From: a virus
IMG/VR virus record: IMGVR_UViG_3300047476_001516
Span: 1-30,601 of that record
Length of the DNA: 30,601 bases
Direction: 5' to 3' (one strand)
Positions 937 to 26,600 of this stretch are shown one piece after another. Position 1 is the stretch's first letter. Each line of letters begins with the position of its first letter. A program made the translations under genes and the position numbers. Below the pieces are notes generated by a model. That model worked only from the letters and a program-made list of their open reading frames with translations, was not told where the DNA came from and ran no database searches.

Positions 937-2723
937 ATGGCAGCTACAACTGCAAGTGGCGTTGGCGCAGCGGATCTTCCGTTGCTCGACAAAAAATGGC
1001 TCACCTTCGCATTCGCCATCTATGCTGTGTTCTACGCATGGGTACGCTGGTATGAAGGCGTCTATGGCTGGTCCGCCGGTCTCGACTCATTCGCACCCGA
1101 GTTCGAAACCTACTGGATGAACTTCCTGTACACCGAAATCGTCCTGGAAGTCGTCACCGCCTCCATCCTGTGGGGCTACATCTGGAAGTCCCGTGACCGC
1201 AACCTGGCGGCTATCACCCCGCGTGAAGAGCTGCGTCGCAACATGACCCACCTGGTCTGGCTGTTTGCTTACGCCAACGCCATCTACTGGGGCGCTTCCT
1301 ACTTCACCGAGCAGGACGGCACCTGGCATCAGACGATCGTGCGTGACACCGACTTCACCCCGTCACACATCATCGAGTTCTACCTGAGCTACCCGATCTA
1401 CATCATCACCGGCTTCGGCGCCTTCCTGTACGCCAAGACCCGTCTGCCTTTCTTCGCAGAAGGTCTGTCCCTGCCCTACCTGGTGACTGTGGTTGGTCCG
1501 TTCATGATCCTGCCGAACGTAGGTCTGAACGAATGGGGTCAAAATGGCTCCTACACTCAGTAATGAGTGTAGAAAACTGCTCTAATTGCTGGGAACTCCT
1601 ACTGGGACAATCAGCAGCCAAGCTCAGAAATGAGAAGGTTCAACGACTAGATCGCAAGATCGTACATCCAAGTGGATGGAAATGGGCAGAATCCCGTGAT
1701 GGGATTAAGATATAGTCTGGTCTTACAGGTAACTGTAAGCAGTTTCAATAAGAAACGGTATAAGAGTAACGAACTTATATGAACAAAACACATACTTTTT
1801 GGTTTCAACGTAAGCCACTTTAAGCAGTAATGTTTATAGAAAACCACTTTAATTGCTGGAAACTCCTACTGGGACAATCAGCAGCCAAGCTCAGAAATGA
1901 GAAGGTTCAACGACTAGCCGAAAGGCGTACACTCAAGCGAGTGGAAATGGGTGGGATCCTACTGGGATCAAGATATAGTCTGAACTGTATGGTAACATAC
2001 AGCAGTCCTAAAAGGACGGATAAGAATTTAGCGAATCTTATTGAACACGATGTTATGGAAGAACTTTTTGTCGCTCAATTGGGGCGCTTATAATCGCGAG
2101 ATTATAATGAAAACTCTGTGAATTCGGTGAACATCTCAATGCTGAGACAATACCGAGCCAAGCCCTGATTATAGGGAAGGTGTAACGACTATTCCGAAAG
2201 GAAGTACCATCAAGTGATGGGAAGCGCAGAGCAACTGATTGAATCAGTTGAAGAGATAGTCTGATCTATGTGGTAACGCATAGCAGTTCCTTTTGGAACG
2301 AGTAAGTATTAACGAAACTTACTGAACATTGCGCCATTGCACTATGGCTTCGTTTTCTTCGGTTAATAACTAGCCGCTTAATATAGCGATGTATTATGAA
2401 AAACTCCTTTAATTGCTGGAAACTCCCACTGGGACAATCAGCAGCCAAGCCCGAAAGGGAAGGTTCAACGACTAGCCGCAAGGCGTAGGATCAAGTGATC
2501 CGAAATGGGGAGCAACCAGAAATGGTTGAAGATATAGTCTGATCTGTGTGGCAACATGCAGCGGTTCTTAAAAAGAACGGTATAAGTATAACGAACTTAT
2601 ATGAACACATTGTGGTTAGCACTGGCGATTGCTGGAGTTCTACTCCAAGTATTTGCTAGTTTCGGTAATTTAATCGGAAAGGACATTGTTGAAGCGGTAG
2701 ATAGTGGATTGATTGCGAAGTAA
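937..2723 (+). CDS. pmoC: Particulate methane monooxygenase subunit C, split by four group I introns
   Basis: Predicted join 937-1539, 1791-1803, 2053-2075, 2334-2363, 2613-2723, giving 780 coding bases and 259 residues, the normal PmoC length. PmoC is an integral membrane subunit of the copper enzyme that oxidises methane to methanol. Exon 1 covers residues 1-201 and ends NEWG. Exon 2 supplies HTFW and the first base of F, exon 3 finishes F and gives MEELFVA, exon 4 gives [10 protein letters not shown], and exon 5 gives WLALAIAG to the end (LIAK). All copper ligands by homology to Methylococcus PmoC are present: D127, H131, H144 (CuC) and N198, H202, H216 (CuD), at a constant offset of 29. 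Unspliced translation stops at 1561. The start has AGAGG at 924-928. Exon 1 uses GC-rich, CTG-type codons; exons 2-5 use AT-rich codons like the phage genes. No pmoA or pmoB is visible. Splicing is inferred, not shown. Confidence 0.93.
1540..1790 (+). ncRNA. Group I intron 1 of pmoC (251 nt, no ORF)
   Basis: Core signatures are present: R-type GGTTCAACGACTAG at 1637-1650 and S-type AAGATATAGTCT at 1707-1718. P1 pairs exon end GGGGT with GCTCC at 1547-1551, with the expected U.G pair at the splice site. P2 is a 9-bp hairpin (CTACACTCA/TGAGTGTAG, GTAA loop) at 1551-1572. A 3-bp P10 (CAT with ATG at 1545-1547) and the spacing from a conserved GAACA seen in introns 2-4 both place the 3' splice site after 1790. 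That makes the last intron base A, not the usual G. Nearly identical in core and P9 hairpin to the intron at 8680-8930. It interrupts between G201 and copper ligand H202. Confidence 0.9.
1804..2052 (+). ncRNA. Group I intron 2 of pmoC (249 nt, no ORF)
   Basis: R element around 1904-1917 and S element AAGATATAGTCT near 1970-1981. P1: exon 2 end TGGT pairs with GCCA, with U.G at the splice site. P10: exon 3 start TTATG pairs with CGTAA immediately 5' of the P1 strand, a 5-bp match that fixes the 3' site. The intron ends in G at 2052, ten bases from the start of the conserved GAACA. It splits the phenylalanine codon between exon 2 and exon 3. A block of about 65 bases covering the P/Q and R elements is almost identical to intron 1. 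Confidence 0.92.
2076..2333 (+). ncRNA. Group I intron 3 of pmoC (258 nt, no ORF, divergent)
   Basis: The most divergent copy: R-type GGTGTAACGACTA and S-type GAGATAGTCT (about 2253-2262) are recognisable. P1: CGCT at the exon 3 end with GGCG, U.G at the splice site; P10: CCA of exon 4 with TGG. An 8-bp hairpin (TTATAATC/GATTATAA, GCGA loop) at 2089-2108 matches the P2 position of intron 1. It ends in G at 2333, again ten bases from the GAACA start. It lies two codons before copper ligand H216. Confidence 0.9.
2364..2612 (+). ncRNA. Group I intron 4 of pmoC (249 nt, no ORF)
   Basis: P1 pairs CGGT at the exon 4 end with GCCG, with U.G at the splice site. P10 pairs exon 5 start TGGTTA with TAACTA just upstream of the P1 strand (six pairs, one wobble). 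The R element GGTTCAACGACTAG and S element AAGATATAGTCT are intact. It ends in G at 2612. The 3' end (TATAAG stem, GAACA) closely matches introns 1 and 2. Splicing joins FFG to WLALAIAG in frame. Confidence 0.92.
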
Positions 2724-2743: not shown

Positions 2744-2770
2744 AAAAGGGAGCTATGCTCCCTTTTCTTT
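2744..2770. terminator. Bidirectional terminator between pmoC and the GIY-YIG gene
   Basis: A 10-bp stem AAAAGGGAGC/GCTCCCTTTT with TAT loop, followed by a T-rich tail on the plus strand and TTTTC on the minus strand. It lies 20 bases after the pmoC stop. The stop codon of the convergent endonuclease gene is in its loop, so it probably ends both transcripts. Confidence 0.85.
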
Positions 2771-3514
2771 TGTCTTTTGTTTACAATTGTCTCCGTGATA
2801 TCTTGTCATGTTGCCTCCACTGCCCACGTGTCCACAATGTGGACAAACTTTTGTTTTCATATTTCGTTTTTTAAAAACCCTATCTTTTAACCAACCTGGT
2901 TGAACATTCTCGTCAAGAACATAATAATCTTGCTCTCCGTCATTCCACCATTTAAAATCGCCTCTATCCCTCGTGTTTGCGCTTTCCGACATTTTTGCAA
3001 TAGTCTCATTGGAATACACATTCGTTCGACCTTTATTCCAAGGAACTTGTCCAGTTTTTTTGTTTTTGTTCCAAGGAGTGGAACCCTTTTTGGATCGACT
3101 CATTGTTTCGCGATATTCGTTAGTTCGTGGTGGTTTCTTTTTTCCTTTCCCCATTCTTCCTACTTCGGCCAGTTTTATTTTTGTTTCTGGTGTGTGTTTG
3201 TATCCTATTGTTCCCTCGCCTCCCTCTGTCATGTTGTATCCATTGCTATCGGGAAAATAAATGCAACTATTGAATTCTCGGATAAAATATGGTTCCATCT
3301 CTTTCAGTGTATGGATAGCATCTGATGATTGGTATATTGCTTCCCATTCAAAAGAATCCCAACCGTATTTTCTTAGACTTCTGTGAAAAACGTGATTTCC
3401 TATCTTCATCGCGGTCTTGTGTTCTGCTTGACGTTTAGGCCAATTGGAATCGTATCCTATGTAACACTTTCCTGAAATTTTGTGAGTTGCCTTATATATA
3501 GTATAAATATTCAT
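2753..3514 (-). CDS. Free-standing GIY-YIG homing endonuclease with NUMOD-type and zinc-finger regions
   Basis: A 253-residue protein. The start at 3514 is chosen over an upstream ATG at 3562 because GGAGGA precedes it and the GIY-YIG domain begins at once (MNIYTIYKATHKISGK, then CYIGYD). The catalytic pattern is visible: Y of the first motif, YIG, an arginine in the following helix (WPKRQAEH) and a glutamate in EPYFIREF. A segment GYKHTPETKIKLAEV matches the NUMOD3 style of DNA-binding motif. The C-terminus has a CPHCGHVGSGGNM...H...NC zinc-finger-like motif common in phage endonucleases. Such enzymes cut intron- or gene-less alleles to spread themselves or neighbouring introns. It sits tail-to-tail with pmoC, which carries four ORF-less introns, so it may drive their homing in trans. 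It is preceded by a structured leader shared with the other two GIY-YIG genes. Confidence 0.85.
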   Translation of the reverse strand: MNIYTIYKATHKISGKCYIGYDSNWPKRQAEHKTAMKIGNHVFHRSLRKYGWDSFEWEAIYQSSDAIHTLKEMEPYFIREFNSCIYFPDSNGYNMTEGGEGTIGYKHTPETKIKLAEVGRMGKGKKKPPRTNEYRETMSRSKKGSTPWNKNKKTGQVPWNKGRTNVYSNETIAKMSESANTRDRGDFKWWNDGEQDYYVLDENVQPGWLKDRVFKKRNMKTKVCPHCGHVGSGGNMTRYHGDNCKQKTKEKGA

Positions 3515-5095: not shown

Positions 5096-7405
5096 TTATC
5101 GTTGTTGTTTTTCTTGTTCTACTGCTCTGAGTACTTCATCTCGTAATTCTTCTGGCACAAGTTCTAACGCATCGACATCCTGACTAACAGCGATTTTGCA
5201 TAGTTCTGCATATTCTGGTAATTCTTCTGGCACAAGTTCCAACGCCCACCAAGCCTGGCTAACAGCGATTTTGCATAGCGTTGGTGTTCTTAGTTCTTCT
5301 GGCACAATTTCCAACGCATAACCGTTTTGACTAACAGCGATTTTGCATATATCTGCATATTCTGGCAATTCTTCTGGTACGTGCCGCAGTGCCTCGCCAT
5401 CTTGACTAACGGCGATTTTGCATATCTCCTCATATTCTGGCAATTCTTCTGGCACCCAATACAACGCCCAACCCTTTTGACTAACAGCAATTTTGCATAG
5501 CTTTGATGTTCGTAATTCTTCTGGCACATATTTCAACGCCAGGCCCTCATTACTAACAGCGATTTTGCATAGTTTTGCGTATTCTGGCAATTCTTCTGGC
5601 ACATATTTCAACGCCCCGCCACTTTGACTAACAGCGATTTTGTATAGTTCTGGTGTTCGTAATTTTTCTGGTACTTGATCCAGTGACAAAACTCCTTGAC
5701 TAACAGCGGCTTTGTATAATGCTGGTGTTAGCAAATATCTTGGCACATGCCTCAACGCCCAACCCTTTTGACTAACAGCGATTTCGCATATTTCTGGATA
5801 TTCTGGCAATTCTTCTGGCACAAGTTCCAACGTACGCCAATTTTGACTAACAGCGATTTTGCATAGTTCCGATGTTCTTAATTCTATTGGAACAAATTGC
5901 AACGCCCAGTCATCTTTGCTAACAGCGATTTTGCATATCTCTAAGTATTCTGGTAAGTCTTTTGGCACATATTCCAACGCCCTGCCGAAGTTACTAACAG
6001 CGCGTTTGCATAGTTCCGATGTTCTTAGTTCTTCTGGCACATATTGTAACGCCCACCCATATTGACTAACAGCGATTTTGCATAGTTTCGGTGTTATTAA
6101 TTCTTCTGGCACGTATTGCAGTGCGTCGCCACCTAGACTAACAGCGATTTTGCATAGCTTGGCATAACCAGGAGTAGTCGGTTGAACATACCCTAAGTTA
6201 TTATAATTCCGTAGAACAAGTCCCTTCAAGATTTCAAAATTTCTTCGTATATCTCTATTTGCTTGAGATATAAGTAATTTGGGATCTCTTTTCAACACAT
6301 CCAATATCACGTCTTTGTAACGATCAATAAGATTACTCGGAACATTCAGTGATAATTTTGGGTCTGTTTGAATTGCTTTATCCCATGCCGCAGGATCATT
6401 AGTGTATTCACCGGTATTTGGATCAATCAGATATTGTAAGCCCGGTGATAGACCTGATATCTCATTGATGTACATTTTCCTTACCCAAGTCGGTGCCTTT
6501 AGTGCTTGACTGGGACTTACTTTAATTTGATCGCTTATAAGATTAGGTTTTTTATTCTGAATTACTTGTAGATTTTCATCTGATAGGTCGAATACCGAGA
6601 AGTTATTGTCGGCTAAGTAACCCCCACCTTGTATGCCTTTTACCTTATCACTCAGTAATAAACTCATGATCTGAGGATGAAGTTTTTCTGATGGCTTCTG
6701 GTTATTATATGCCTTCATCTCTCCGAGATTGCCATTAGGTTCCAAAATAAAGGTAAGCAACACCTGACCGTTCTTTCTAAGACTCAGGATTCTTTGGTCA
6801 GGCTTGCTTTTTCCGGTTATATTACCACAATGCTTTCCGTACTCTCCTTCTTTCTCGCAGTAAGCCCTATCAACCCACCACCAAGCACTCCCATCAGGGA
6901 ATTTCATCAATTCATAATCGCCTTCTTGTGGTTCTATCGGTGGTAGATTATTTTTACTCTGTTTTTCACTCCAATCTTGTTCTATAGAACGTAGATCACC
7001 CATGATTTCATCATATGATTTCTTACCGAATTGATACGAATCTACTGCTGGTATATTGAAGCCAAAGAAGTGGCCAAGATCATTTTGAATTGCTTTTATA
7101 TCAGGTACTTGCTTGCCAGCCTGTTGATCAGCAAGCATATTGCCGACATTCTTCATGTACCAAACAATTTTTTCGTCCTTTTTCAAGGTAGCCTTTGCCC
7201 ACTTGAGTTGATCGGCAATCTCTTGTTGGAAATCGGGATATTTAGCCTTCATTGAAGCAATCATGCCATCGTAACTGGCTTCATCCAATTGATGCTCTTC
7301 GTATATCTTCTTACTGGATTCAACGACGAATTCATGAAACAACCGATAAGCAGTTGATTCATCATCATTCATAAGCGATTCAAGGATTTTAGTAAATTTG
7401 GACAT
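5096..7405 (-). CDS. 769-aa protein: phage N-terminal domain plus 14 DUF4116-type repeats
   Basis: Three regions. Residues 1-45 (MSKFTKILESLMNDDES..., LFHEFVVESSKKIYE) resemble the helical N-termini of T4-like phage head-associated proteins. Residues about 165-275 hold a YCEKEGEYGKHCGN motif followed by RILSLRKNGQVLLTFI and an EMKAYNNQKP segment; this C...HC arrangement is seen in a family of phage proteins of unknown function. Residues about 413-760 are 14 copies of a 22-27 residue unit with consensus CKIAVSQxxxALxxVPEEL, matching DUF4116 repeats, whose role is unknown. The repeats would form a helical solenoid suited to protein binding. A GATAAATA motif lies 22 bases upstream of the ATG, so late expression is likely; there is no clear Shine-Dalgarno. 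A virion or host-interaction role is only an inference. Confidence 0.8.
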   Translation of the reverse strand: MSKFTKILESLMNDDESTAYRLFHEFVVESSKKIYEEHQLDEASYDGMIASMKAKYPDFQQEIADQLKWAKATLKKDEKIVWYMKNVGNMLADQQAGKQVPDIKAIQNDLGHFFGFNIPAVDSYQFGKKSYDEIMGDLRSIEQDWSEKQSKNNLPPIEPQEGDYELMKFPDGSAWWWVDRAYCEKEGEYGKHCGNITGKSKPDQRILSLRKNGQVLLTFILEPNGNLGEMKAYNNQKPSEKLHPQIMSLLLSDKVKGIQGGGYLADNNFSVFDLSDENLQVIQNKKPNLISDQIKVSPSQALKAPTWVRKMYINEISGLSPGLQYLIDPNTGEYTNDPAAWDKAIQTDPKLSLNVPSNLIDRYKDVILDVLKRDPKLLISQANRDIRRNFEILKGLVLRNYNNLGYVQPTTPGYAKLCKIAVSLGGDALQYVPEELITPKLCKIAVSQYGWALQYVPEELRTSELCKRAVSNFGRALEYVPKDLPEYLEICKIAVSKDDWALQFVPIELRTSELCKIAVSQNWRTLELVPEELPEYPEICEIAVSQKGWALRHVPRYLLTPALYKAAVSQGVLSLDQVPEKLRTPELYKIAVSQSGGALKYVPEELPEYAKLCKIAVSNEGLALKYVPEELRTSKLCKIAVSQKGWALYWVPEELPEYEEICKIAVSQDGEALRHVPEELPEYADICKIAVSQNGYALEIVPEELRTPTLCKIAVSQAWWALELVPEELPEYAELCKIAVSQDVDALELVPEELRDEVLRAVEQEKQQR
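5125..6170 (-). repeat. Imperfect tandem repeats coding for the DUF4116-type units
   Basis: Fourteen units of about 66-81 bases, each containing a form of CTAACAGCGATTTTGCATA (plus strand) and an adjacent TCTTCTGGCACA. They are coding repeats, diverged in the loop positions. Confidence 0.9.
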
Positions 7406-7719: not shown

Positions 7720-8601
7720 ATGCTATTTAGTACCCTAAACTGGGAGCCAGTAAAGAAAGTTCCATTATTCATTCACGATGTGAATGATATTATATCTACT
7801 TGGAAGCAATACACTCATTGGAAGAATCTTAATGATTATTGTGTATATGTTTACTTGCGAGAGGAATCCGATAAACACGGTCCGAAGTACAGCATTCGTT
7901 ACGTCGGAGAAGGACAACCTAAAAGAATAATTAGCAAAAATCATAGAGTGAGAATTCCTATAAGCGGTGAATTTATCTTCGTGGTTGATGGATTGACAAA
8001 AAAGGAAGTCAGAGATATCGAGGAAAAAATAATTCAAGTTTTCGGAAGAATATCAAAAGGAACTGGTATCTTGGAAAACCTGAAACACAAATGCGGCGGA
8101 CAAGAAGATCCAGTGCCTCCGAGAAAAAAGGAATTGTGTCAATATTGCGGCAACGAATATGCTCACCTTCAATTTCATGAACGACATTGTGACAAAAATA
8201 TTGACAGAGAATATGGAACAAAAACATATCAATACACTAAATGTCAGTATTGTGGTGACGAATTTACTATAAATCAGGCACAACAACATGAAAGAAGTTG
8301 TAAACGCAATCCTGATCCTAAACCCTCGTCGCATAAAATGTTGTCATGTAAATTTTGTGACAGAGAAGTTTTAAGTTCCGCTATGCCCCAACACGAACGA
8401 ACTTGTGCCAAGAATCCAAATAGAGTGGCTGGACCAGGCACTGGTAATACGTTTTCAAAAATTCAATGTTCTATGTGTGATAGGATGGTAGCTTACAATA
8501 ACATAGCTATTCATGAGAGAAGTTGTAAAAATAATCCAAATAGAGTTCCGGGTGTCAGATATGGTAAAACGAGTAAAAAGATAAATACATTTGCCGAATA
8601 G
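7720..8601 (+). CDS. GIY-YIG-like nuclease with four C-terminal zinc fingers
   Basis: A 293-residue protein. Residues 38-70 (YCVYVYLREES..., YSIRYVGEGQPKRI) match a GIY-YIG fold with YVG for YIG and a following arginine. An acidic helix at 93-105 (KKEVRDIEEKIIQVFGR) supplies the candidate catalytic glutamate, and GTGILENL follows as in LEM-3-like members. Residues 140-157, 175-194, 210-229 and 250-269 are four similar zinc fingers of the form CxxC...HERxC, which should bind DNA. Likely role: sequence-specific homing or mobility nuclease. The ATG follows AGGAGG and the conserved leader copy B. It stands just before a gene with an ORF-less group I intron (8680-8930), so it may act on that site in trans. 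Confidence 0.75.
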   Translation: MLFSTLNWEPVKKVPLFIHDVNDIISTWKQYTHWKNLNDYCVYVYLREESDKHGPKYSIRYVGEGQPKRIISKNHRVRIPISGEFIFVVDGLTKKEVRDIEEKIIQVFGRISKGTGILENLKHKCGGQEDPVPPRKKELCQYCGNEYAHLQFHERHCDKNIDREYGTKTYQYTKCQYCGDEFTINQAQQHERSCKRNPDPKPSSHKMLSCKFCDREVLSSAMPQHERTCAKNPNRVAGPGTGNTFSKIQCSMCDRMVAYNNIAIHERSCKNNPNRVPGVRYGKTSKKINTFAE

Positions 8602-8673
8602 GTCGGTTTATGGGGTATTAATCCACCTCGTAGGCGAATAGAACCGCCATTATAAACAAAAGGAGATAAAATC

Positions 8674-9740
8674 ATGGGTCGGCTGGCCCCGCCAGATAGT
8701 AATATCTAGTGATAACTGCTCTAATTGCTGGGAACTCCTAATGGGACAATCAGCAGCCAAGCCTCGTGAGAGGAAGGTTCAACGACTAGCCGAAAGGCGT
8801 ACACTCAAGTGAGTGGAAATGGGTAGGATCCCTCCGGGATCAAGATATAGTCTGATCTTACAGGTAACTGTAAGCAGTTTTGATTAAATCAAAGCGGTGC
8901 GGAATTAACGTCTCTGCGCGAACAACGTTGCGTCCTCTAAAAGTACAGAAGTATTCACCAGGTTCCGGGGATAACGGAACATCAACCACAGCGGGCAACG
9001 GTGTTCCGGTTCCCGTAGATATCGCTTATCCACCGTTTATTGCGATGGATCCAGGCACCGCTGTCACACCAGCTGGTAGCCTTATTACACCACCTTGGAC
9101 TGGTGTAGTCGGTGGTGTGCCAAACCCAGCAACGTCTGCTGCTTACCCTATCGTGGCCATTACTGTAAATGTAGCTCTACCTAACGGAACTGGCGCTGGT
9201 GTTGCACCGGGTGCAATTATTCGTCAGAAAGGTTCGCGCAAATATATGGTAGCTGATCTAACGCCTGTTGCAGCCACGGCCATGATTCCTGGTGCAGCTT
9301 ATATGATTGCCACTACAGGCAATACACCATGGCAATCATTTGGTGCAAGCGTTAATTATAATATTTGGGATGTATTCACTTGTACTGCCGCTGGTACTGG
9401 AACGGGTACTGCATATCTTGTGGGTTCTTGCGTTCTTGACGATACAGCTAATCCGACTGTGGGCAACATGAGTATCGGTTTCCTTGATAGCACTTCCACG
9501 GTTCAGTATATCAGCAAATTAACAAATAAATTTCTATTTGACTTTGCTGGTGGCGAGGTCGGCGGTAATGCTAATGCCGGTGATGTCTGGTCATATGAAC
9601 AGGTACAAAACAACGAACGTTGGATTGCGAACTTTTTCACTGATGATGGATACATGGTCAAGTCTGGCACAAGTGGTGGTCCGAATACACCCGGCCAACA
9701 AAACCAAGTTCCGATGGGAGATGTGGATTCTTATACCTAA
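8674..9740 (+). CDS. Phage structural protein, start codon separated by a group I intron
   Basis: Predicted join 8674-8679, 8931-9740: exon 1 is only ATG GGT, exon 2 continues with CGT CCT, giving MGRPLKVQ and a 271-residue protein. Exon 1 carries the ribosome-binding site (AGGAG at 8661-8665); exon 2 has none, so the gene needs splicing to be translated. Unspliced translation from 8674 stops after 11 codons. The mature sequence is glycine, alanine, threonine and proline rich with repeated beta-type strands, and an MGRPL start is typical of T4-like phage structural proteins. No enzyme motif. It is probably a head-decoration or fibre-associated virion protein. A splice site three bases earlier (adding L) is also in frame. 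Confidence 0.75.
8680..8930 (+). ncRNA. Group I intron 5, after codon 2 of the structural gene (251 nt, no ORF)
   Basis: It carries the same P/Q block (CTAATTGCTGGGAACTCCTA), R element GGTTCAACGACTAG and S element AAGATATAGTCT as the pmoC introns. P1 pairs exon end GGGT with GCCC, with U.G at the splice site; P2 is AGATA-GTAA-TATCT. The P9 hairpin CTTACAGGTAACTGTAAG is identical to that of pmoC intron 1, its closest relative. The 3' end has a P9.2 stem and GAACA, then G at 8930 (or 8927). The same length as pmoC intron 1. Confidence 0.88.
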
Positions 9741-10040: not shown

Positions 10041-10163
10041 ATGATATTTATTATCTCGGTCAATCGACCCGAAAATTCTCCTATTGGCGTTGCCATAATC
10101 AACAAAGGAGAACTTCAATGGCAACTAAAAAATCAAAAACACCTGTCTACTATACCTATCTGA
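10041..10163 (+). CDS. Short upstream ORF (40 aa) overlapping the endonuclease start
   Basis: The ATG at 10041 has exactly the position relative to leader copy C that the endonuclease ATGs have relative to copies A and B, with the same GAGGA site, so it is probably translated. The product (MIFIISVNRPENSPIGVAII...) has no domain. It overlaps the start of the gene at 10118 in another frame, which suggests a leader peptide, translational coupling, or a relic of a gene replaced by the endonuclease. Confidence 0.45.
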   Translation: MIFIISVNRPENSPIGVAIINKGELQWQLKNQKHLSTIPI

Positions 10164-11224
10164 TAGGGTGGTCTTGGCTTAATACTTGGTATTATGGAAG
10201 CAAATATTCTAAAAATGCCGACCCAGAATTATTCTGGAAGAAATACTTCACATCAAGTAAACACGTAAAGCGATTTCGTGAACAACACGGCGAACCTGAT
10301 GTAATTCAAGTCAGACATACCTTCAACTGTCCTATTAAAACACTTGCTTGGGAAGGCAAAGTTCACAAACGCATGGGTTGTCGGTTGAGTTCACGGTGGC
10401 TAAATGCGGCCGATGCTAATGTCAAGTGGAACACCGCCGGTATGTTCAACGTAAAAGATAATTTAAATAATATTTTTCAAGTATCAGTGAATGATTTTAG
10501 ATATCTATCTGGTGAACTCAGGGGCATATTAAGTGATAGAGTAACTGTGCAGGATAAGTCTGGTAAAACGATGTCAGTGTCGGTGTCTGACGAAAAATAT
10601 ATATCAGGAGAGTGTATCAGTATCAATAAGGGAAAAATTCCGGTAAAAGATAAGGATGGGAAATCATCACAAGTGACGAGAGATGATTTTAGGTGGGTAT
10701 CTGGAGAACTCGTTCACGTCACTAAAGGTACTGTAAACGTGTTGGATAAAGATGGCAATAATATTAGAATAAAAAAAGACGATCCACGATTGTTGTCGGG
10801 TGAATTGACAGGGATCGTCAAAGGAACTATTGTAGTTATGGACAAAGATGGCAATAAATTCAGAGTATCTAAGGATGATTCTAGGTGGATATCCGGCGAG
10901 TTAAAAGCATTGTCTTCTAATACAGTGATGATCAGAGACAAAGATGGAAGTGCGATCAGGGTGTCAAAGGACGATCCACGGTGGGTATCGGGCGAGATGA
11001 CGGCAATCGCCAAAGGCAAGGTGAATGTTATCGACAGAGATGGAAATAAGTTTATGGTATCAAAGGATGATCCTCGATGGTTATCGGGTGAATTGATAGC
11101 ACTATCTACAAATTCCGTTGTGGTAAAGGATAAGTTCGGGAATAAATTTAGAGTATCAAAAGATGATCCTCGATGGTTATCGGGTGAAGTTGTAGGAGTA
11201 AATAAGAAAAATTGGCCCTGTTGA
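10118..11224 (+). CDS. GIY-YIG-like endonuclease with eight C-terminal DPRWLSGEL repeats
   Basis: A 368-residue protein. Residues 10-105 (YYTYLIGWSWLNTWYYGSKY, YFTSSKHVKRFREQHGEPD, WEGKVHKRM, RWLN) match a GIY-YIG-type domain common in T4-like phage mobile endonucleases, with YLIG/YYG for the two motifs and E80 as the candidate metal-binding residue. Residues about 111-362 are eight units of about 30 residues with consensus VxDKDGNxFRVSKDDPRWLSGEL, which are probable DNA-binding modules like the NUMOD-type repeats of homing enzymes. Start chosen for AAAGGAG nine bases upstream. It ends at a terminator that is a near copy of the one before it at 9760, so the cassette is flanked by direct repeats. 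Confidence 0.75.
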   Translation: MATKKSKTPVYYTYLIGWSWLNTWYYGSKYSKNADPELFWKKYFTSSKHVKRFREQHGEPDVIQVRHTFNCPIKTLAWEGKVHKRMGCRLSSRWLNAADANVKWNTAGMFNVKDNLNNIFQVSVNDFRYLSGELRGILSDRVTVQDKSGKTMSVSVSDEKYISGECISINKGKIPVKDKDGKSSQVTRDDFRWVSGELVHVTKGTVNVLDKDGNNIRIKKDDPRLLSGELTGIVKGTIVVMDKDGNKFRVSKDDSRWISGELKALSSNTVMIRDKDGSAIRVSKDDPRWVSGEMTAIAKGKVNVIDRDGNKFMVSKDDPRWLSGELIALSTNSVVVKDKFGNKFRVSKDDPRWLSGEVVGVNKKNWPC

Positions 11225-11859: not shown

Positions 11860-13116
11860 ATGATTTTTAAATCTTTCAAATATCGCCTATATCCAAATGT
11901 GGCCCAACAAGAGCAGATGATAAAGACATTTGGGTGTAAACGACTAATATTCAATCATCTACTTGATACACAAATCAAGAGATATGAATCGGGTGAAGGA
12001 AATCTTACTTACTTCGGATGTAATAATCTGATTGTGGAATGGAAGAAGGAAGAAGAAAAAGCATTTTTGACAGAAGTAGATAGTCAAGCACTTCAGCAAG
12101 CAGCAAAAGACTTGCACGATGCCTATACTAACTTCTTCAAATCACTGAGCGGCAAGAGGAAAGGGACTAAAATTAATAGCCCTAAATTCAAATCCAAGTA
12201 TGCACGTCAGAGCTATCGTACCCCAAATAATAATGGAACGATTAAATTCAAAGATGATTCTTTGAGATTGCCAACTTTGGGTTATGTAAGAGCAGTTATT
12301 GACAGGAATATAGAGGGAAAAATTAAATCGGCTACTATCTCCATGGATAGAGATGGCAAATTTTATGTATCTGTTTTGGTTGAAACGGAACAGAAACTAT
12401 TATCAATGACTGGCAAGGAAGTCGGCATTGATTTAGGGATTAAGGATTTATTTGTTACATCAGATGGCAATAGATTCGATAATCCAAAAGACTTAATTCG
12501 TATGACAAAAACCACGCAACGAATTAAGTTGTTGCAGAAAAAGTTGGCAAGAACAAGAAAAGGCAGTAAGAGCAGAGAAAAGCTACGAATTCAATTGGCA
12601 TCTGCATATAAGAGGTTAACCAATCAAAGAAACAACTATTATCATGAAATCAGTCATTGGTTGGTTAATTCGTATGATGCAATTTATGCGGAAGATTTGA
12701 ATGTGAAAGGAATGATGGCTAATAGAAAACTATCAAGAGCTATTCATGAATCTTCATGGGCCACTTTGGTGGGAATGATTCAATATAAATGCGAGTGGTA
12801 TGGAAAAACATTTTATCAAATCAATCGCTATTATCCATCTTCAAAGACTTGTTCTTGTTGCAGCAATAAAATAGAAAAATTGTCATTATCCGAACGTGAA
12901 TGGAAGTGCCCATCTTGTGGCACATTACACGATAGAGACTATAATGCAGCGATAAATATCCTCAAAGAAGGACAAAAAGACTTATATAGCACTTCGTTGG
13001 TCCGACGCGAAGCGGGCGAAATAATCGTCCCGTCAGCTCTAGTGAAATTGAGTAGTAAAACCGAGAGGTCTGATTCGTTGAAATCAGTTGCTCAAGGGAC
13101 AGAGTTAGTTTATTAA
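11860..13116 (+). CDS. tnpB: IS605-family TnpB, RNA-guided nuclease, without TnpA
   Basis: A 418-residue protein with the whole TnpB architecture: N-terminal FKSFKYRLYPN region, central wedge/REC part, RuvC motifs with D191 (GIDLG), E278 (YAEDLNV) and D360 (HDRDYNAAINI), and a zinc ribbon CSCC...CPSC (C331, C334, C350, C353). All catalytic residues are intact. TnpB proteins are known RNA-guided DNA nucleases that use an omega RNA from their own 3' end and favour transposon retention. No tnpA is present, the gene starts 10 bases after the previous stop and the next gene starts 37 bases after its own, so there is little room for transposon ends. It may act as a stand-alone homing-type gene. The start lacks a clear Shine-Dalgarno. 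Confidence 0.92.
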   Translation: MIFKSFKYRLYPNVAQQEQMIKTFGCKRLIFNHLLDTQIKRYESGEGNLTYFGCNNLIVEWKKEEEKAFLTEVDSQALQQAAKDLHDAYTNFFKSLSGKRKGTKINSPKFKSKYARQSYRTPNNNGTIKFKDDSLRLPTLGYVRAVIDRNIEGKIKSATISMDRDGKFYVSVLVETEQKLLSMTGKEVGIDLGIKDLFVTSDGNRFDNPKDLIRMTKTTQRIKLLQKKLARTRKGSKSREKLRIQLASAYKRLTNQRNNYYHEISHWLVNSYDAIYAEDLNVKGMMANRKLSRAIHESSWATLVGMIQYKCEWYGKTFYQINRYYPSSKTCSCCSNKIEKLSLSEREWKCPSCGTLHDRDYNAAINILKEGQKDLYSTSLVRREAGEIIVPSALVKLSSKTERSDSLKSVAQGTELVY

Positions 13117-17649: not shown

Positions 17650-20600
17650 ATGGCACTAACTAAACCCCGCGCTGCACAGCTTTATGACATTGATTACAAG
17701 CAAGCTGCATTGGTTGTTACTACAACCAATATCGCCCTTGTTGGAGGAGCACCTAACGTAGTAGATGGTGTAGCTCTTGCACAAAATAGCCGAGTTCTGG
17801 TAACAGGGCAATCTATTCCTGCACAAAATGGTATCTATACCGTTACTACGCTCGGAACGGGAGTAAGTGGAACTTGGACAAGATCACAAGATGCAACCGT
17901 AACCGGTCAATTACTCTCTGGTACTATTATAACAGTAACTGAGGGTGTTGTCAATCGTGATTCTCAATGGATGTTGACAACTGATGGTGTAATTACCATT
18001 GGCACTACCGCAATTCAGTTCGCTAAATTCAGCGACAAGACATTCAGTGAAATTGATGCAAACGGCGTTGCCATCATTGCAACCACATTTGGTGATACCC
18101 TAAACATTCTACCCGGAAATAATATCAGCATCGTAGGTGATGCAAGCTCCAAGACCATCACTATTGCTGCTACGATTGCTCAACCCACTCAGATTATCAA
18201 TGGATCATCCAGAGTGTATATTCCTTCAGCAAATAGCAATGTCGCAATATCTGTTGGTGCAATTTCAAATGTTGCTGTATTCAGTCCTTCTGGATTGGGA
18301 TTAGTCGGTTCATTATCTACTACTGGAAATGCTGCTATCGGTGGCAATCTTACTGTTGCTGGGACTTATACTGCTGGAAATATCGTTGTTGGTAACATCA
18401 CTATCCCACATGGTGGTAGAATTGTCGGTGACCTTATCCCTGCTATTGATAGCACGTTTAGTCTTGGTAATGCAACAAGCAAATGGAAAGATTTATGGTT
18501 AAGCAATTCTACACTGTATATTGGTAATACAACGGTATCAACTAATTCTACTGGTCAATTAACAGTCAATGGAAACACTGTTGTTACTGCCGCTGCTAAT
18601 GGATTGCTTAATGTTAGTAACATTGCGGTCACTAATACTATTTTTGCAAGCGGAATCTATGTTAGCAATGCTAATCGTGATGCGCCGGTCTCGGCTGATA
18701 TTGTAATCGCAACTGAAGTACGTGGTAATCTACTCATTGGTAATGGTGCGTTCATCACCGACATTTATAGTAATGCAAATGTAGCTAACTATCTTGCTAA
18801 TTATTCTGGTCAATTTGGCAATGGCAATATTCAGCTTAGTGTAGCAAATATTAACGCTAATGGATACATTACATCCACATCGTCTATTACTGGAGCTTCG
18901 TTAGTTAGCAATTCTACAATCACAGCCGGTGGGTCACTGACTGCACAAAGTATTGTTAGTAATAGCTCTATTAGTGCTGCAACTACAATTACTGGCCAAG
19001 CGTTAGCGAGTAACAGCTTTATCAGCGCAGTATCTACGATTGTTGGTCAACAAATTATTGGTAATGTAGCTGTATCTACGCCTGGAACAATGACCGGTGG
19101 TGATGTTGTTAGCAACAATAGCATCACTGCTGCTGGAATTATTTTGGGACAAGATATCACAGCAAATGATACAGTCACAGCGGGTGGTGTATTAACTGGA
19201 CAAGAAATCGTCAGCAACACTTTTGTTTTAGCAGAAGATATTATCAGCAATGATTCAATTATCGCTGGTGGCGATGTCCTTGCCAACGCAATATATGCTA
19301 ATAATAACATTTTTGCTGGTGGCACTATTGCTACTGCTAGCTCGGTTATCGGTCATAATTTTATTGCTAATGAGTCTATCACTGCCGGTGATTTTATTGA
19401 TTCTCAAAGCTCTATCACTGGACAATCAATACTTAGTAATACCAGCATTGCTGGTCAATCGCTTAACATTGCTCAATCTGGTCAATTCGGTAAAGATTTG
19501 AGTGTCGGTGGAAATATTCATGTTGCCGGCAATGCTTATGTTGAGGGTAATGTTACCTATATTAACATTGAAGAATTGAGTGTTCAAGACCCGATTATTT
19601 CCATGGGTAGAGGACCAAACAACACACCCCTTACTGCAAATGATGGATTTGATCGTGGCGAGCAAATGTGGTATTACACTACATTGGAACAGTCTGCATT
19701 TATTGGCTATCAAAATAGCACTGGTAAATTGTTGGCGGCTAATAATGTCACAATCACTAACGAAATCGTTACAGTAAATAATTTTGGTACATTTGAAGTA
19801 GGCAACCTTGAAGCAGAAAACGTAGCTATTTCTGGTGATATTGCGGTTATCAATGCTTATATCACAAATGATGCCGTTGTTGGCGGTAATCTTGTTTCTA
19901 ATGATACATTTGTGGCAGATGGACAAAATACCTTCATCAATTCAGGCGTTACTGCAATTCGTGGTACTATTTTTGGTGTTGGTAGAGAAGCTAATAATGC
20001 TTCGCTAACTGCTGATGATGGCTTTGATCGCGGTGAGCAACTATGGTACTTTGATGTTGCGGGTAATGTTGAGAAGAGCGCGTTCATGGGTTATGATAAT
20101 TCAATGGATGTCATGATTATTGCAACTGATGCTACGGTGACCGGCAATATTGCAACAGTGAATAACTATGGCAATGTGATGGTGGGTAATGTAATCGGCC
20201 AAAATGTAATCACTCAAAACGCTGATATTTCCACTCTGGCAACAGTGCAAGACCTTGTTGTTAACGCAATGACAACAACCACCGATTTGAATGTTCTTAA
20301 TGATGCCAACATTGGTGGTACTCTCACTCTAAATGATCTTCAAGCCACTACTGCAAATATCGGGACGCTTGTTGTTCCTGTTTTGGCTACGATTGAAGAA
20401 CTAATCGTCAATCAAGATGCCAATGTACTTGGTAACGTCATTGTCACTGAAGATTTGATCGTTAGTGGTCAAAATACTTTTATCAATTCTTCTGATTTTG
20501 AAATCAGTGATCCCGTGATCGGAATTGGTAGAGGGGCCAATAATACTCCTCTGTCATCTAATGATACTAAAGATCGTGGTGAACAACTGTGGTGGTTTGA

Positions 20601-23600
20601 TGCTAACACTGTAACTGAAAAGTCGGCATTTATCGGGTATTCTTCCTTCAATGATAAACTATTTGCAGCCATCGACGTAACTGTTACAAACGAACAAGTA
20701 ACAACTATTCATAATTATGGTAATTTTGTTGTCGGCAACCTTGAAGGACAATTTGCTACTCTTAGCGCGAATGTTGATGCTGGCAATCTGAACGCTGTTG
20801 CGAATGTTAATGCTGGCAATGTGCTTATCTCAAGAGATGCCTTCATCACTGGAAATTCTAATGTAACTGGCAATATTATTGGTAGTAATTTACTGATTAA
20901 CAACACAGCGAACATTCAAGGCAATGCCAACATTATCGGTAATGCAAATGTAACTGGCACTCTTGATGTTATTGCACCAGCTTATCTTCGTGGTGGCGCA
21001 AACATCAGTTCTTATGCCAACATCGGTGGTAACTTAATCGTAAATAATATCTCTACAGGTAATGTAGATGCTGGCAATATCAATTTGGCTAATAGCATCA
21101 ATGTTGGTAAATTCGCTAATATCACTGGCAAAATCACTGGTGGAAATGATCTCGTTTTAGCTGGCAGTGCAAACATTAGCGGTAATGCGTCTATCACCGG
21201 TAATATCACTGGCAATTATATGTCAATCAATAATGATGTTACTATTGGTGGTAATGCGCTTATTATCGGTAATGCTATCATTGATGGCAATGTAACATAC
21301 ATCAACATTGAAGATTATAATGTTCAAGACCCGATTATCTCACTTGGCACTGGTCCAAATGGCGCACCTCTGACGTTCAATGATGGTAAAGATCGCGGTG
21401 AAAACATGGTTTACTATCGCGGTACTCAGAAATCCGCGTTTATTGGTTACGATGAATCTGCCAACACTCTTACTGCTGCCATTGATGTAACAATCGCTAA
21501 TGAAATCGTATCAGTAAATGCTTATGGTAATTTCGTTGTTGGTAATGTCTTCGGTGCTAATATCACTGGCAGTGGCAACATCGGTGGCAATAATATCAAT
21601 GCAACGAATGATGTCACGATTGGCAATAGTTTAACGGTAACTGGCTCAATCAGCATGGCTGGTCCTCTTGTTGCTGATAGTGTTACTTCTAATACTACTA
21701 TCACTGCGGTTGGTAATGTATCTGGTGGAAATTTAGTAACAGCCAATCTGGTTCAGGGCAGCAATCTATATTCAACTGCGACTATCACTGCGGTGGGCAA
21801 TGTATCTGGTGCTAATGTTACTACTACTGGTAATGTTGTTGCTACCGGTAACTTGGTCGCTGGTGCTAATCTACTCGTAAGTGGAGTAGCGAATTTTGTC
21901 GGGAACGTTGCTGCTGGTAACTTCACTACTACTGGTAATGTTGTTGCTTCTGGAAATGTCAATACTGCGAGCACATTCAATGGCGCTAATCTAAACGTAA
22001 CTAATACCGCAAATATCGGCAATGCCGCTAATGTTGTTGGTAGACTTGGTGTAGGTTCATTGGTTGTTGAAACTAATGCTAATATTGTTGGCACAGCGTC
22101 GGTTGGTGGTAACATCTCTACTGGTGCAAACGCAATCATCGCTGGTTATGCGAATGTTGCTGGTAACATCAATGGCAGTGCTAACCTCAATATTCCAGAT
22201 AACATTTATGCGAACAATATCTTCCTGCGTAATTTCGTGTTCGCAAATGCGAATGTTACTGCTGGTAATCTGATCTCTAATGCAAAAATCACTGGTGTAG
22301 ATATTGCTATTTCGCGTGATGCTAATGTTGTTGGTAATCTAACGATTGGCGGTAATTTGGTGGTAGATGGTGGCTTTGGTGATCTAAATGTAACATCTCT
22401 CACTGTTGAAGATCCCATTGTGCTATTTGGTGGTGGTCCTAATAACGCTCCGCTTGCGAACAACGATGGCAAAGATCGTGGCACTGGTCTAAATTACTTC
22501 AATGCTGGTCCTAAAGTTGGATTCTTTGGTTATGATAATAGCCAGACTGAAATTGTGGCTGCACTTGACGTTACTATCGCTAACGAAGTTGTTACATATC
22601 ATGATTGGGGAACATTCAGAGCGGGTAATATCGCTGCTCAGACTGCAACGGTATCTGGCAATATTATTGCCTCTGGAAACGTGGCAGCAAGCAACGTCAA
22701 TGTATCGGCTAATGTAAACACTGCTAATCTATATGCTTCTGGCATGGCAAATATTATTGGCAATTTGGATGTAAATGGTAATCTAAATGCTGTTCACATT
22801 AACGCTTCTGGCAATTTGGCCATTGACAATCTGTCTGCTAATACGATAACTTCCAATGGGAATATATCTGGTAGTAATCTAAACGCTTCTGGTAACGTAG
22901 CTGCTATTGGCAACATTCAAACTGCTGCTGGCATCTTGGCTACAGGTAATATCAAGGGAGCTAATCTGATTAGCACTGGTAATACTATCTCCATGGGCAA
23001 TGTCGTGGCTAATCTGTCGCTTCTTGGTAATGGGTTGGCGGTCACTGGTACGGCCAACATCGTTGGTGCGGCTAATGTTCAAGGTGAGCTAAGTGTAACT
23101 GACTTGAAGGTAGCAAATTCTGCCAATCTTGGTGGAGCTAATCTTGTTACAACCGGCAACATTAGTGGAAATAATCTGATTATTAGTCGTGTTGCGAACA
23201 TTGGTGGTAACGTTAATATCGGCGGCAATGCAAATATCGCCAATGACATTTATGCGAATAATGCTTATCTACGTAACTTCGTTTATGCAAATGCCAATGT
23301 AGTTGCTGGTAATCTGATCTCTAATGCCAATATTACTGGTGGAAACATTCTAATCAATCGCGATGCTCAAGTAACCGGTAATCTGATTATTGGTCAAGAT
23401 TTGATTGTAGATGGCAATACCACTTATATCAATATCGTTGATTATAATATTCAAGACCCGATCATTTCACTCGGTGGTGGTCCAAACGGTACACCATTGA
23501 CGTTGAATGACGGAAAAGATCGTGGCGAAAACATGATCTACTTCAGAGGAACTCAGAAATCTGCATTCGTTGGTTATGATAACTCTGCTAATACTATCAC

Positions 23601-26600
23601 TGCTGCAATTGATGTAACTATTACTAATGAAATCGTAACTGTTAATTCTTATGGTGATTTTGTTGTTGGCAATATCTTTGGCGCTAATCTAACGGCTAAT
23701 GGCAATGCTACTATCGGTGGTACTGCTACTATCTCTGGTGATGCAAACGTAACGGGCGATGTTAACTCAAACAATCTATCTACAGTAAACGATGCGAACA
23801 TTGGTGGTAATCTAACTGTTTCTGGTATTCTAAATGCAGTAAATGTAAACTTCAGTGGCGACTTAGCTGTTGACGATCTAAATGCTAACACAGTTACAGC
23901 TAACGCTAATATCACTGGTGGTAATCTAATCTCCAACGCTTTGGTGAGAGGTAGCAATCTATTCTCTACTGCTACTATTACTGCTGTTGGTAATGTAACT
24001 GGTGGAAATATCACTACTTCTGGTAATGTTGACACCACTGGCACATTCAATGGCGCTAATCTTGTTCTATCTGGACAAGCCAATATTGCTGGACCCGCTA
24101 ATGTTGCAGGACAATTATCTGCAAATTCTCTGCGAGTTCAAACTACAGCTAACGTGGGTGGTGTTGCTAACGTGGTTGGTAACATCGTTGGTGGTTCAAA
24201 TGCAATAATCGCTGGTTATGCGAATATCGGTGGCAACATTAACGGTGCTGCTAACCTCAATATTCCAGATGACATTTATGCGAACAACGCTTATCTACGT
24301 AACTTCGTGTTTGCAAACGCTAATGTTACTGCTGGCAATTTGATATCTAATGCTCGCACCACGACCGTTACTTTACAAGTAACAAATGACGCTAATATTG
24401 TTGGCAACGAAGTTATTGGTGGCAATCTTGTTGTAAGTGGCGCTCACACCTATCTGAATACAACAAATGTTCTGATTACTGACCCTATCGTTGGCATTGG
24501 TCGCAACGCAAATAATGCACCATTGACTTCTGGTAATACACAAGATCGTGGTTCTCAACTCTGGTACTTCAACACAACTGAAAAATCGGCGTTCATGGGA
24601 CTTGATCAATCAGCTAATGCACTTATCGCGGCCCTCGATGTAACCATCGCTGGCGAAATCGTAACAGTAAACGATTATGGCAAATTTATTGCTGGTAATA
24701 TTGAAGCTACATCCGCTGTTGTTACGGGCAACGTTGCTGCTGGAAACTTCACTACTGCTGGTAATGTAATTGCATCAGGCAATGTTGGCGCTAACAATAT
24801 GACTGTTACTAATGACGCAAATGTTCTTGGTGACATGAATGTAGTTGGAACTCTAACTGCTGGTACAGTTGCATTTACAGGAAATCTGGACGTTAATGTA
24901 TTGAACGCGAATAGCATCAATGCAAACAGCAATATCACTGGTGGTAATCTAATCTCTAATGCGTTGGTCCAAGGTAGCAATGTATTCTCTACTGCGACTA
25001 TTACTGCTGTTGGTAATGTAACCGGCGGCAACATTGTTACTTCTAACTCTGTTGTTAGCAAAGACCTGTTGATGAGCGGCAATGCAAATATTGCTGGTAC
25101 AGCTAATGTACTGGGTGCACTATCTGCTAACTCACTTCAAGTACACACCAATGCGAATGTTGCTGGAACAGCTAACGTGGTTGGTAATATCGTCGGTGGT
25201 TCAAATGCAATTATCGCTGGATATGCAAATGTTGGTGGTAACATCAATGGTGGTGCTAACCTCAATATTCCAGATGACATTTATGCTAACAACATCTTCC
25301 TACGTAACTTCGTTTATGCAAATGCTAATGTAGTTGCTGGTAATCTGATCTCTAATGCCAACATTACTGGTGGCAATCTACTGATTAATCGCAATGCTCA
25401 AGTGGTTGGTAATCTGATTGTTGACGAAGACCTCATCGTAAACGGTAATACCACTTATATCAACATCGTTGATTATAATGTTCAAGACCCGATTATATCA
25501 TTGGGTGGTGGTCCAAACGGAGCGCCCCTGACAACTAATGACGGAAAAGATCGTGGTGAAAACATGATCTATTTCAGAGGAACTCAGAAATCCGCATTCG
25601 TTGGTTATGATAACTCTGCCAATACTATCACAGCAGCCGTTGATGTAACTATTGCTAATGAAGTAGTTACCGTAAACAGTTATGGTGCATTTGTTGTCGG
25701 TGATGCGTATGCTAATACCATCGCTGCCAATGGCAATATCTCTACATCAAGTTACTTTGTTGGTAATGCAGCATATCTTGATATGACGACCTTCACCGGT
25801 AATATCATACCCTCTGCAAATGTGACATATAGTCTCGGTAACGCTACTAATCAATGGAAAGACCTATGGGTTAGTAATGCTACGATCTATATCAATAGTA
25901 TTCCTCTAAGTGTAAACGCTAACACTGATCTCACCATTAACGGTGACCCAGTTGTTAGTATCAACCCGGCTACGTATGAAACTAATGTAGGTAATTTGGT
26001 AGTACCCAACACCGTATCTGCTGGCAATATAGCTGTTGCGGCTGATCTTACGGTTGCCAACACTATAACAGCGGCATTCTACTCTGGTGATGGTAACGGA
26101 CTTGTTAACCTATATCCACAGTTCGGTAATGCTGACGTTACTGCTGGCAATATCATCGCTAATAGTAACATTGGTGCTGCTAATCTAAGCGTTAGCAACC
26201 AAGCCAATATTGCTGGAGCAGCTAACGTTCTTGGAGCACTATCTGCCACATCATTGCAAGTACACACCAATGCAAATGTTTCTGGTAATGCAAATGTTTC
26301 CGGTAACATAAGCGGAGGAAATCTAGCTATATCAGGTGTTGCGAATGTTGGGGCTAATATCAATGGCGGTGCTAATCTAAATATCGCTGATGACATCTAT
26401 GCGAACAACGCTTATCTACGTAATTTCGTGTTCGCAAATGCGAATGTTACTGCCGGTAATCTGGTATCCAATGCTCGCACAACTACGGTTGATCTACGTG
26501 TTACTCAGAATGCCAATATCGTTGCAAATGCGGTTGTTGGTGGTAATATAACAACCAGTGGTTCTTTGGCTTATATCAATGCAACCACATTGGCTGTTGT

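Follow-up and report, generated by a model that had tools for sequence, protein, structure and literature searches.

The window, a virus-collection record of 30,601 nucleotides (30.6 kb), contains a pmoC gene split by four group I introns and, convergent with it, a gene for a homing endonuclease, P0001. Carriers of pmoC in this setting are freshwater phages. All four introns match Rfam family RF00028 (E 2e-26 to 3e-23; 93.9–104.7 bits against a gathering score of 50), and the catalytic core and conserved helices of group I introns are present in each. Exon borders were placed by the 5'-U/3'-terminal-G rule and by comparison with intron-less pmoC, and the five exons are predicted to be spliced into a 259-residue PmoC. 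None of the four introns encodes an endonuclease ORF, as had been stated in a preceding reading of the sequence alone. The features of the locus are as follows (L numbers denote other viral pmoC loci).

937–1539, plus strand: pmoC exon 1, codons 1–201, host-like composition (AmoC Pfam 7.6e-101; GC3 0.76; 87% DNA identity to a Methylococcus MAG)
1540–1790, plus strand: group I intron 1, inserted between NEWG and H (Rfam 93.9 bits; covariance model R1 match 1539–1790)
1791–1803, plus strand: pmoC exon 2, 13 nt (homology to intron-less pmoC)
1804–2052, plus strand: group I intron 2, at site W-F, the L084 site (Rfam 96.3 bits; tree support 100/99 with the L084 intron)
2053–2075, plus strand: pmoC exon 3, 23 nt (homology to intron-less pmoC)
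2076–2333, plus strand: group I intron 3, inserted between A and P, the L110 site (Rfam 97.9 bits; tree support 100/100 with the L096, L101 and L110 introns)
2334–2363, plus strand: pmoC exon 4, 30 nt (homology to intron-less pmoC)
2364–2612, plus strand: group I intron 4, inserted between G and W, an L084 site (Rfam 104.7 bits; tree)
2613–2723, plus strand: pmoC exon 5, including the stop codon (homology to intron-less pmoC)
2742–2768, no strand assigned: terminator-like hairpin between pmoC and P0001, containing the P0001 stop codon (−18.5 kcal/mol; z −5.3; equalled by 0 of 200 shuffles)
2753–3514, minus strand: free-standing GIY-YIG homing endonuclease P0001 (Pfam, PHROG, Foldseek, invariant residues)

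Introns 2, 3 and 4 have the 5' U and the terminal G, and their removal restores the reading frame. All related introns have a terminal G, whereas intron 1 has an A at the homologous place. An alternative splice at a G 9 nt earlier would add three residues (NKT); splicing of this intron may be impaired or shifted by 9 nt. The grouping of the introns in the tree mainly follows insertion site and not genome. Since introns of different genomes are paired there by site, a recent duplication of a single intron inside the window was rejected as the main explanation.

P0001 is a protein of 253 aa, with its ATG at 3514 and a GGAGGA motif directly 5' of this codon. It comprises a catalytic domain (approximately residues 1–100), a NUMOD3 motif and a C-terminal Cys/His zinc-finger-like motif. 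Pfam matches to GIY-YIG (24.2 bits) and NUMOD3 (22.4 bits) both exceed the gathering cut-offs, and the top PHROG is phrog_314, homing endonuclease (1e-26). The top PDB sequence match is the catalytic domain of I-TevI (E 0.2). An AlphaFold model has pLDDT above 90 in the catalytic domain and is poor in the remainder; compared with structures of the I-TevI catalytic domain, it yields a Foldseek E of 1.4e-4 and TM scores of 0.80–0.84 (target-normalised, TMt). The conserved Tyr, Tyr, Gly, Arg, Glu and Asn of the GIY-YIG catalytic domain are present, and in an alignment with 17 relatives Y7, Y18, G20, R28, E74 and N94 are invariant across the family. These residues align with the catalytic positions of I-TevI. 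By sequence and predicted structure, P0001 is a free-standing GIY-YIG homing endonuclease of the I-TevI/Seg type with an intact catalytic site. The stop codon of pmoC ends at 2723 and that of P0001 lies at 2753–2755; together with the domain matches and the I-TevI fold, these positions bear out the tail-to-tail arrangement of a GIY-YIG enzyme and pmoC that had been noticed at the outset.

The nearest relatives of P0001, 52–55% identical, occupy the same position, next to a pmoC without introns, in L118, L303 and their near-copies (L300–L302 are near-copies of L118, and L304 is grouped with L303). Several more distant relatives lie inside or beside introns of the pmoC-intron class. Because the nearest relatives adjoin intron-less pmoC, the family is bound to the pmoC end and not necessarily to an intron. 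Among the pmoC-adjacent enzymes, which fall into at least four different subfamilies, dN/dS is 0.30–0.36. A zinc-finger-like C-terminal motif (CPHC...NMTRYH..NCK) is common to different pmoC-adjacent enzymes (L096, 7021–7674; L101, 7020–7673; L103, 7029–7913; L118, 1317–2114), and the enzyme genes of L118 and L103 end by running into a terminator-like hairpin of the same kind as that in the window.

Approximately 145 viral pmoC loci, some contigs being represented twice, were gathered by scanning for phage pmoC and for sequences related to the L118 endonuclease. Together with the window, these were collapsed at 93% identity into 54 clusters, 53 of which have enough sequence behind the gene. 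Introns were found in the pmoC of seven of the 53 (the window, L084, L096, L098, L101, L103 and L110), at seven insertion sites across phages, six of which fall within about 75 nt near the pmoC 3' end. A convergent homing endonuclease lies no more than 100 nt from the pmoC stop in five of the seven intron-bearing clusters (the window, L084, L096, L101 and L103) versus three of the 46 intron-less ones (L118, L303 and L140; p = 0.0004). The association holds with related cases merged (p = 0.0008) and with the window left out (p = 0.005). L110 and L098 have pmoC introns and no adjoining endonuclease. As background, 20 pmoC-phage records of about 2.4 Mb contain 15 Pfam GIY-YIG domains, a count from which divergent members missed by the Pfam model are absent; at this density, chance placement beside pmoC is too rare to account for the pattern. 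The arrangement of pmoC introns and endonucleases exceeds chance. A covariance model built on the pmoC introns was run on the flanks of the cluster representatives and revealed none beyond a fifth intron in the window, and a search of the INPHARED phage collection gave no pmoC match. The L098 intron (6132–6382), on a 259-kb phage contig, lies far 5' of the other pmoC introns, after about codon 44.

The most direct evidence for transfer comes from a pair of filled and empty alleles. L096 (also L111) and L100 (also L104 and L106) stem from separate metagenomes. Their identity is 99.2% across the 6.6 kb that lead up to the intron site and 98.9% across 4.7 kb past a block that sets L096 apart from L100. 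In this block L096 has an intron and a GIY-YIG gene, both absent from L100, and the identity of the two 3' exons is 88% over 134 nt. The two alleles differ at 2 of 614 positions in exon 1 and at 16 of 134 in the 3' exon (p = 6e-11). L101, which has the same intron (95%) and the same enzyme family in another genomic setting, was taken in place of the donor. Between −128 and −18, L096 has the recipient base at all 17 informative sites, and at −3 it has the donor base; the 5' edge of the block thus lies 3–18 nt upstream of the intron insertion site. The L100 state looks ancestral: in the 3' exon, L100 remains nearest to its intron-less relative L099. The tract in L096 is the footprint that would be expected from repair of a break at or just 5' of the intron insertion site. 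These alignments indicate that the intron is transferred between phages in a single block with the gene end and the enzyme. Such co-transfer of intron and endonuclease into an intron-less allele is seen in the L096/L100 relatives, where the L096 enzyme belongs to a GIY-YIG subfamily other than that of P0001; among the viral pmoC loci surveyed, no filled/empty pair was found for P0001 itself.

Other loci show related exchanges. Between L101 and L103 the identity is 94% in exon 1 and 95% downstream, yet their intron sites differ and their enzymes are unrelated; their relative L109 has neither intron nor enzyme. This suggests a swap of the whole unit, and points the same way as L096 and L100; both comparisons show the traces that collaborative (trans) homing would be expected to leave. 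Among 14 related alleles, the 3' exons of those that bear an endonuclease resemble each other more closely than would be predicted from exon 1 (7 of 2002 label permutations). The pmoC end has apparently been exchanged without introns too, because the 3' exon of L118 is 88.5% identical to that of L096 whereas exon 1 is only 71% identical.

The left part of the window is of different character. Positions 1–1539 have a GC content of about 0.55, against about 0.40 to the right. The identity of exon 1 to the Methylococcus MAG rises to 92% in the last 200 nt, versus 74% for the 3' exons. Positions 1–936 are also host-like, with a cytochrome c gene and a methanotroph (Methylococcaceae type) pmoC upstream region, and the genes upstream of pmoC resemble those preceding pmoC in Methylotetracoccus. 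Positions 1–1539 may represent an assembly join or a transferred host segment. An assembly join is likely because scaffolds of pmoC-phages are known to break at pmoC, the host copies being near-identical (Chen et al. 2020, PMC7674155). The sequence-only reading had attributed a host-type exon 1 to repair with host DNA; the composition and identity signal on which this was based is real, but positions 1–936 are host-like as well, and a join made during assembly at near-identical pmoC is no less likely. In L084 the composition is phage-like on both sides, yet exon 1 is host-like (GC3 0.66; 86% to the Methylococcus MAG). Exchange with host pmoC is plausible from this locus, but its host-like exon 1 is no evidence for the action of P0001. 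Invasion of the host gene, which the sequence-only reading had allowed for, is unsupported, introns being present in 0 of 80 bacterial pmoC loci searched with the covariance model.

The window holds ORF-less introns in a gene with an adjoining free-standing endonuclease, the arrangement that characterizes collaborative homing. We consider that P0001 most likely works by collaborative (trans) homing, with a probability of roughly 0.6. In a mixed infection, phages without the block would be cut by P0001 within the 3' part of their pmoC. The break would be repaired with the carrier phage as template, and the cut genome would thereby acquire one or more ORF-less group I introns together with the 3' exons and the endonuclease gene; the carrier itself would escape cutting, its target being interrupted by the introns. 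We infer accordingly for the window that P0001 would cut pmoC, that one of the four intron sites would be its target and that the introns would protect the carrier. Trans homing had been proposed for this DNA before. For the locus type it is well supported by comparison of L096 with L100 and of L101, L103 and L109, and by the intron–endonuclease association; for P0001 itself the proposal is on less firm ground, as its closest relatives (L118, L300–L302 and L303/L304) stand beside intron-less pmoC, and one enzyme with one site cannot account for all four introns.

Because those closest relatives adjoin intron-less pmoC, the P0001 family need not target an intron site, and plain self-homing of the Seg type is the main rival, although it is rather unlikely on balance. 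P0001 would then spread its own gene by cutting relatives that have neither introns nor enzyme, within or close to the pmoC end, with the introns as passengers by co-conversion or by independent arrival. An enzyme gene beside an uninterrupted pmoC is present in L118, L303 and L140, while the window pmoC has introns; in L118, L303 and near-copies the enzymes are of the P0001 type and at the same place, the gene end is apparently exchanged without introns as well, to judge from L118 and L096, and this is the mode of the T4 Seg enzymes (PMC2988022). What such homing alone leaves unexplained is the concentration of enzymes at intron-bearing pmoC and the conversion edge of L096, no more than 18 nt from the intron site. 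An association without mechanism, with introns spreading through reverse splicing at the RNA level and endonucleases simply gathering behind a conserved gene, would be compatible with the occurrence of related introns at several neighbouring sites and with the two intron loci that have no adjoining enzyme, but is improbable in view of the single continuous replaced tract of the filled/empty pair, the site-specific intron lineages and the significance of the intron–enzyme association.

It is also very improbable that the arrangement is not real as assembled, a phage fragment having been joined in the contig to the region upstream of a host pmoC. The GC content of positions 1–1539 and their resemblance to a methanotroph pmoC upstream region would fit such an artefact, as would the reported breakage of phage scaffolds at pmoC (PMC7674155) and the result of a search for the exact exon 1/intron 1 junction in other viral contigs, where no match was found. 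Any join, however, would lie at or before 1539 and would leave introns and endonuclease together, and the same arrangement occurs in the independent contigs L084, L096/L111, L101/L102 and L103/L107. Collaborative homing may finally be part of a wider contest, which we put forward as a tentative and rather doubtful extension. The intron-accepting stretch of about 75 nt near the pmoC 3' end would, in methanotroph phages, be a shared arena in which several unrelated free-standing GIY-YIG enzymes are each paired with an intron at their own site; stacked introns, four in the window, would shield a phage from more than one rival enzyme simultaneously, and ORF-less introns would act as immunity against the endonucleases of competing phages.

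Several further elements lie to the right in the window. The fifth group I intron (8680–8931; Rfam match 8670–8874) interrupts another gene immediately behind its second codon (ATG GGT); the spliced start of this gene is MGRPLKVQKYSPG. Directly 5' of this gene is a free-standing ORF (7720–8601) that matches PHROG 15526, as do the pmoC-adjacent enzymes of L128 and L140, and the two are possibly a second intron–enzyme pair. A freshwater-2 RNA motif (8592–8676; 47.0 bits, just under the gathering score of 49.9) immediately precedes the intron-bearing start codon. An ORF of 368 aa (10118–11224) with a GIY-YIG-like start and repeated units of about 30 residues matches PHROG 37840, as do the L103 and L139 enzymes. 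A TnpB/OrfB-like gene of the IS605 family (11860–13116) lies amid phage structural genes, and positions 17650–30600 are one uninterrupted open frame, longer than 4300 codons, of repetitive tail-fibre-like sequence that runs off the contig end.

Chen et al. (2020; PMC7674155) described, for large pmoC-phages from freshwater, a fragmented pmoC: two pieces separated by an untranslated stretch that is weakly transcribed and has no known function. They mentioned neither introns nor endonucleases. In the window, too, coding pieces of phage pmoC are parted by an untranslated stretch, and by analogy group I introns of this kind offer an explanation for the fragmented genes. The fragmented pmoC, in phages that may affect methane oxidation, would then be spliced, not broken. 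No report of group I introns in phage pmoC was found in the literature that was searched. The loci also show a metabolic gene with a 3' end that is exchanged time and again between phages by endonuclease-linked blocks in which the enzymes are interchangeable.

Collaborative homing has been documented for the cyanophage psbA intron and F-CphI, for T7-like phages and for ICP1 (PMC6083498, PMC3984707, PMC10448857). Of the parallels drawn in the sequence-only reading, cyanophage psbA was apt, but the other cases documented in the papers cited here are those in T7-like phages and ICP1, not in T-even-like phages. The psbA intron of cyanophage S-PM2 is mobilized with F-CphI (Zeng et al. 2009; PMC6083498), an enzyme with an Endo VII motif, whereas the enzyme at the present locus is of the GIY-YIG type and is encoded by a convergent gene behind a shared terminator-like hairpin. 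The pmoC system further differs from that of S-PM2 in its four introns, in its seven insertion sites across phages and in its several, apparently interchangeable enzyme subfamilies. As in T7-like phages and in the ICP1 terL system with its T5orf172 endonuclease (PMC10448857), the endonuclease is encoded next to, and not within, an intron of a conserved phage gene. The genes and enzyme families are different, however, and here a natural filled/empty pair reveals the transferred tract; L100 and L096, as a natural before/after pair, make collaborative homing testable at the sequence level. The T4 Seg enzymes (PMC2988022) are likewise free-standing GIY-YIG enzymes between phage genes, for which co-conversion of the neighbouring gene is expected, but Seg homing needs no intron, whereas at the pmoC loci introns recur in the neighbouring gene.
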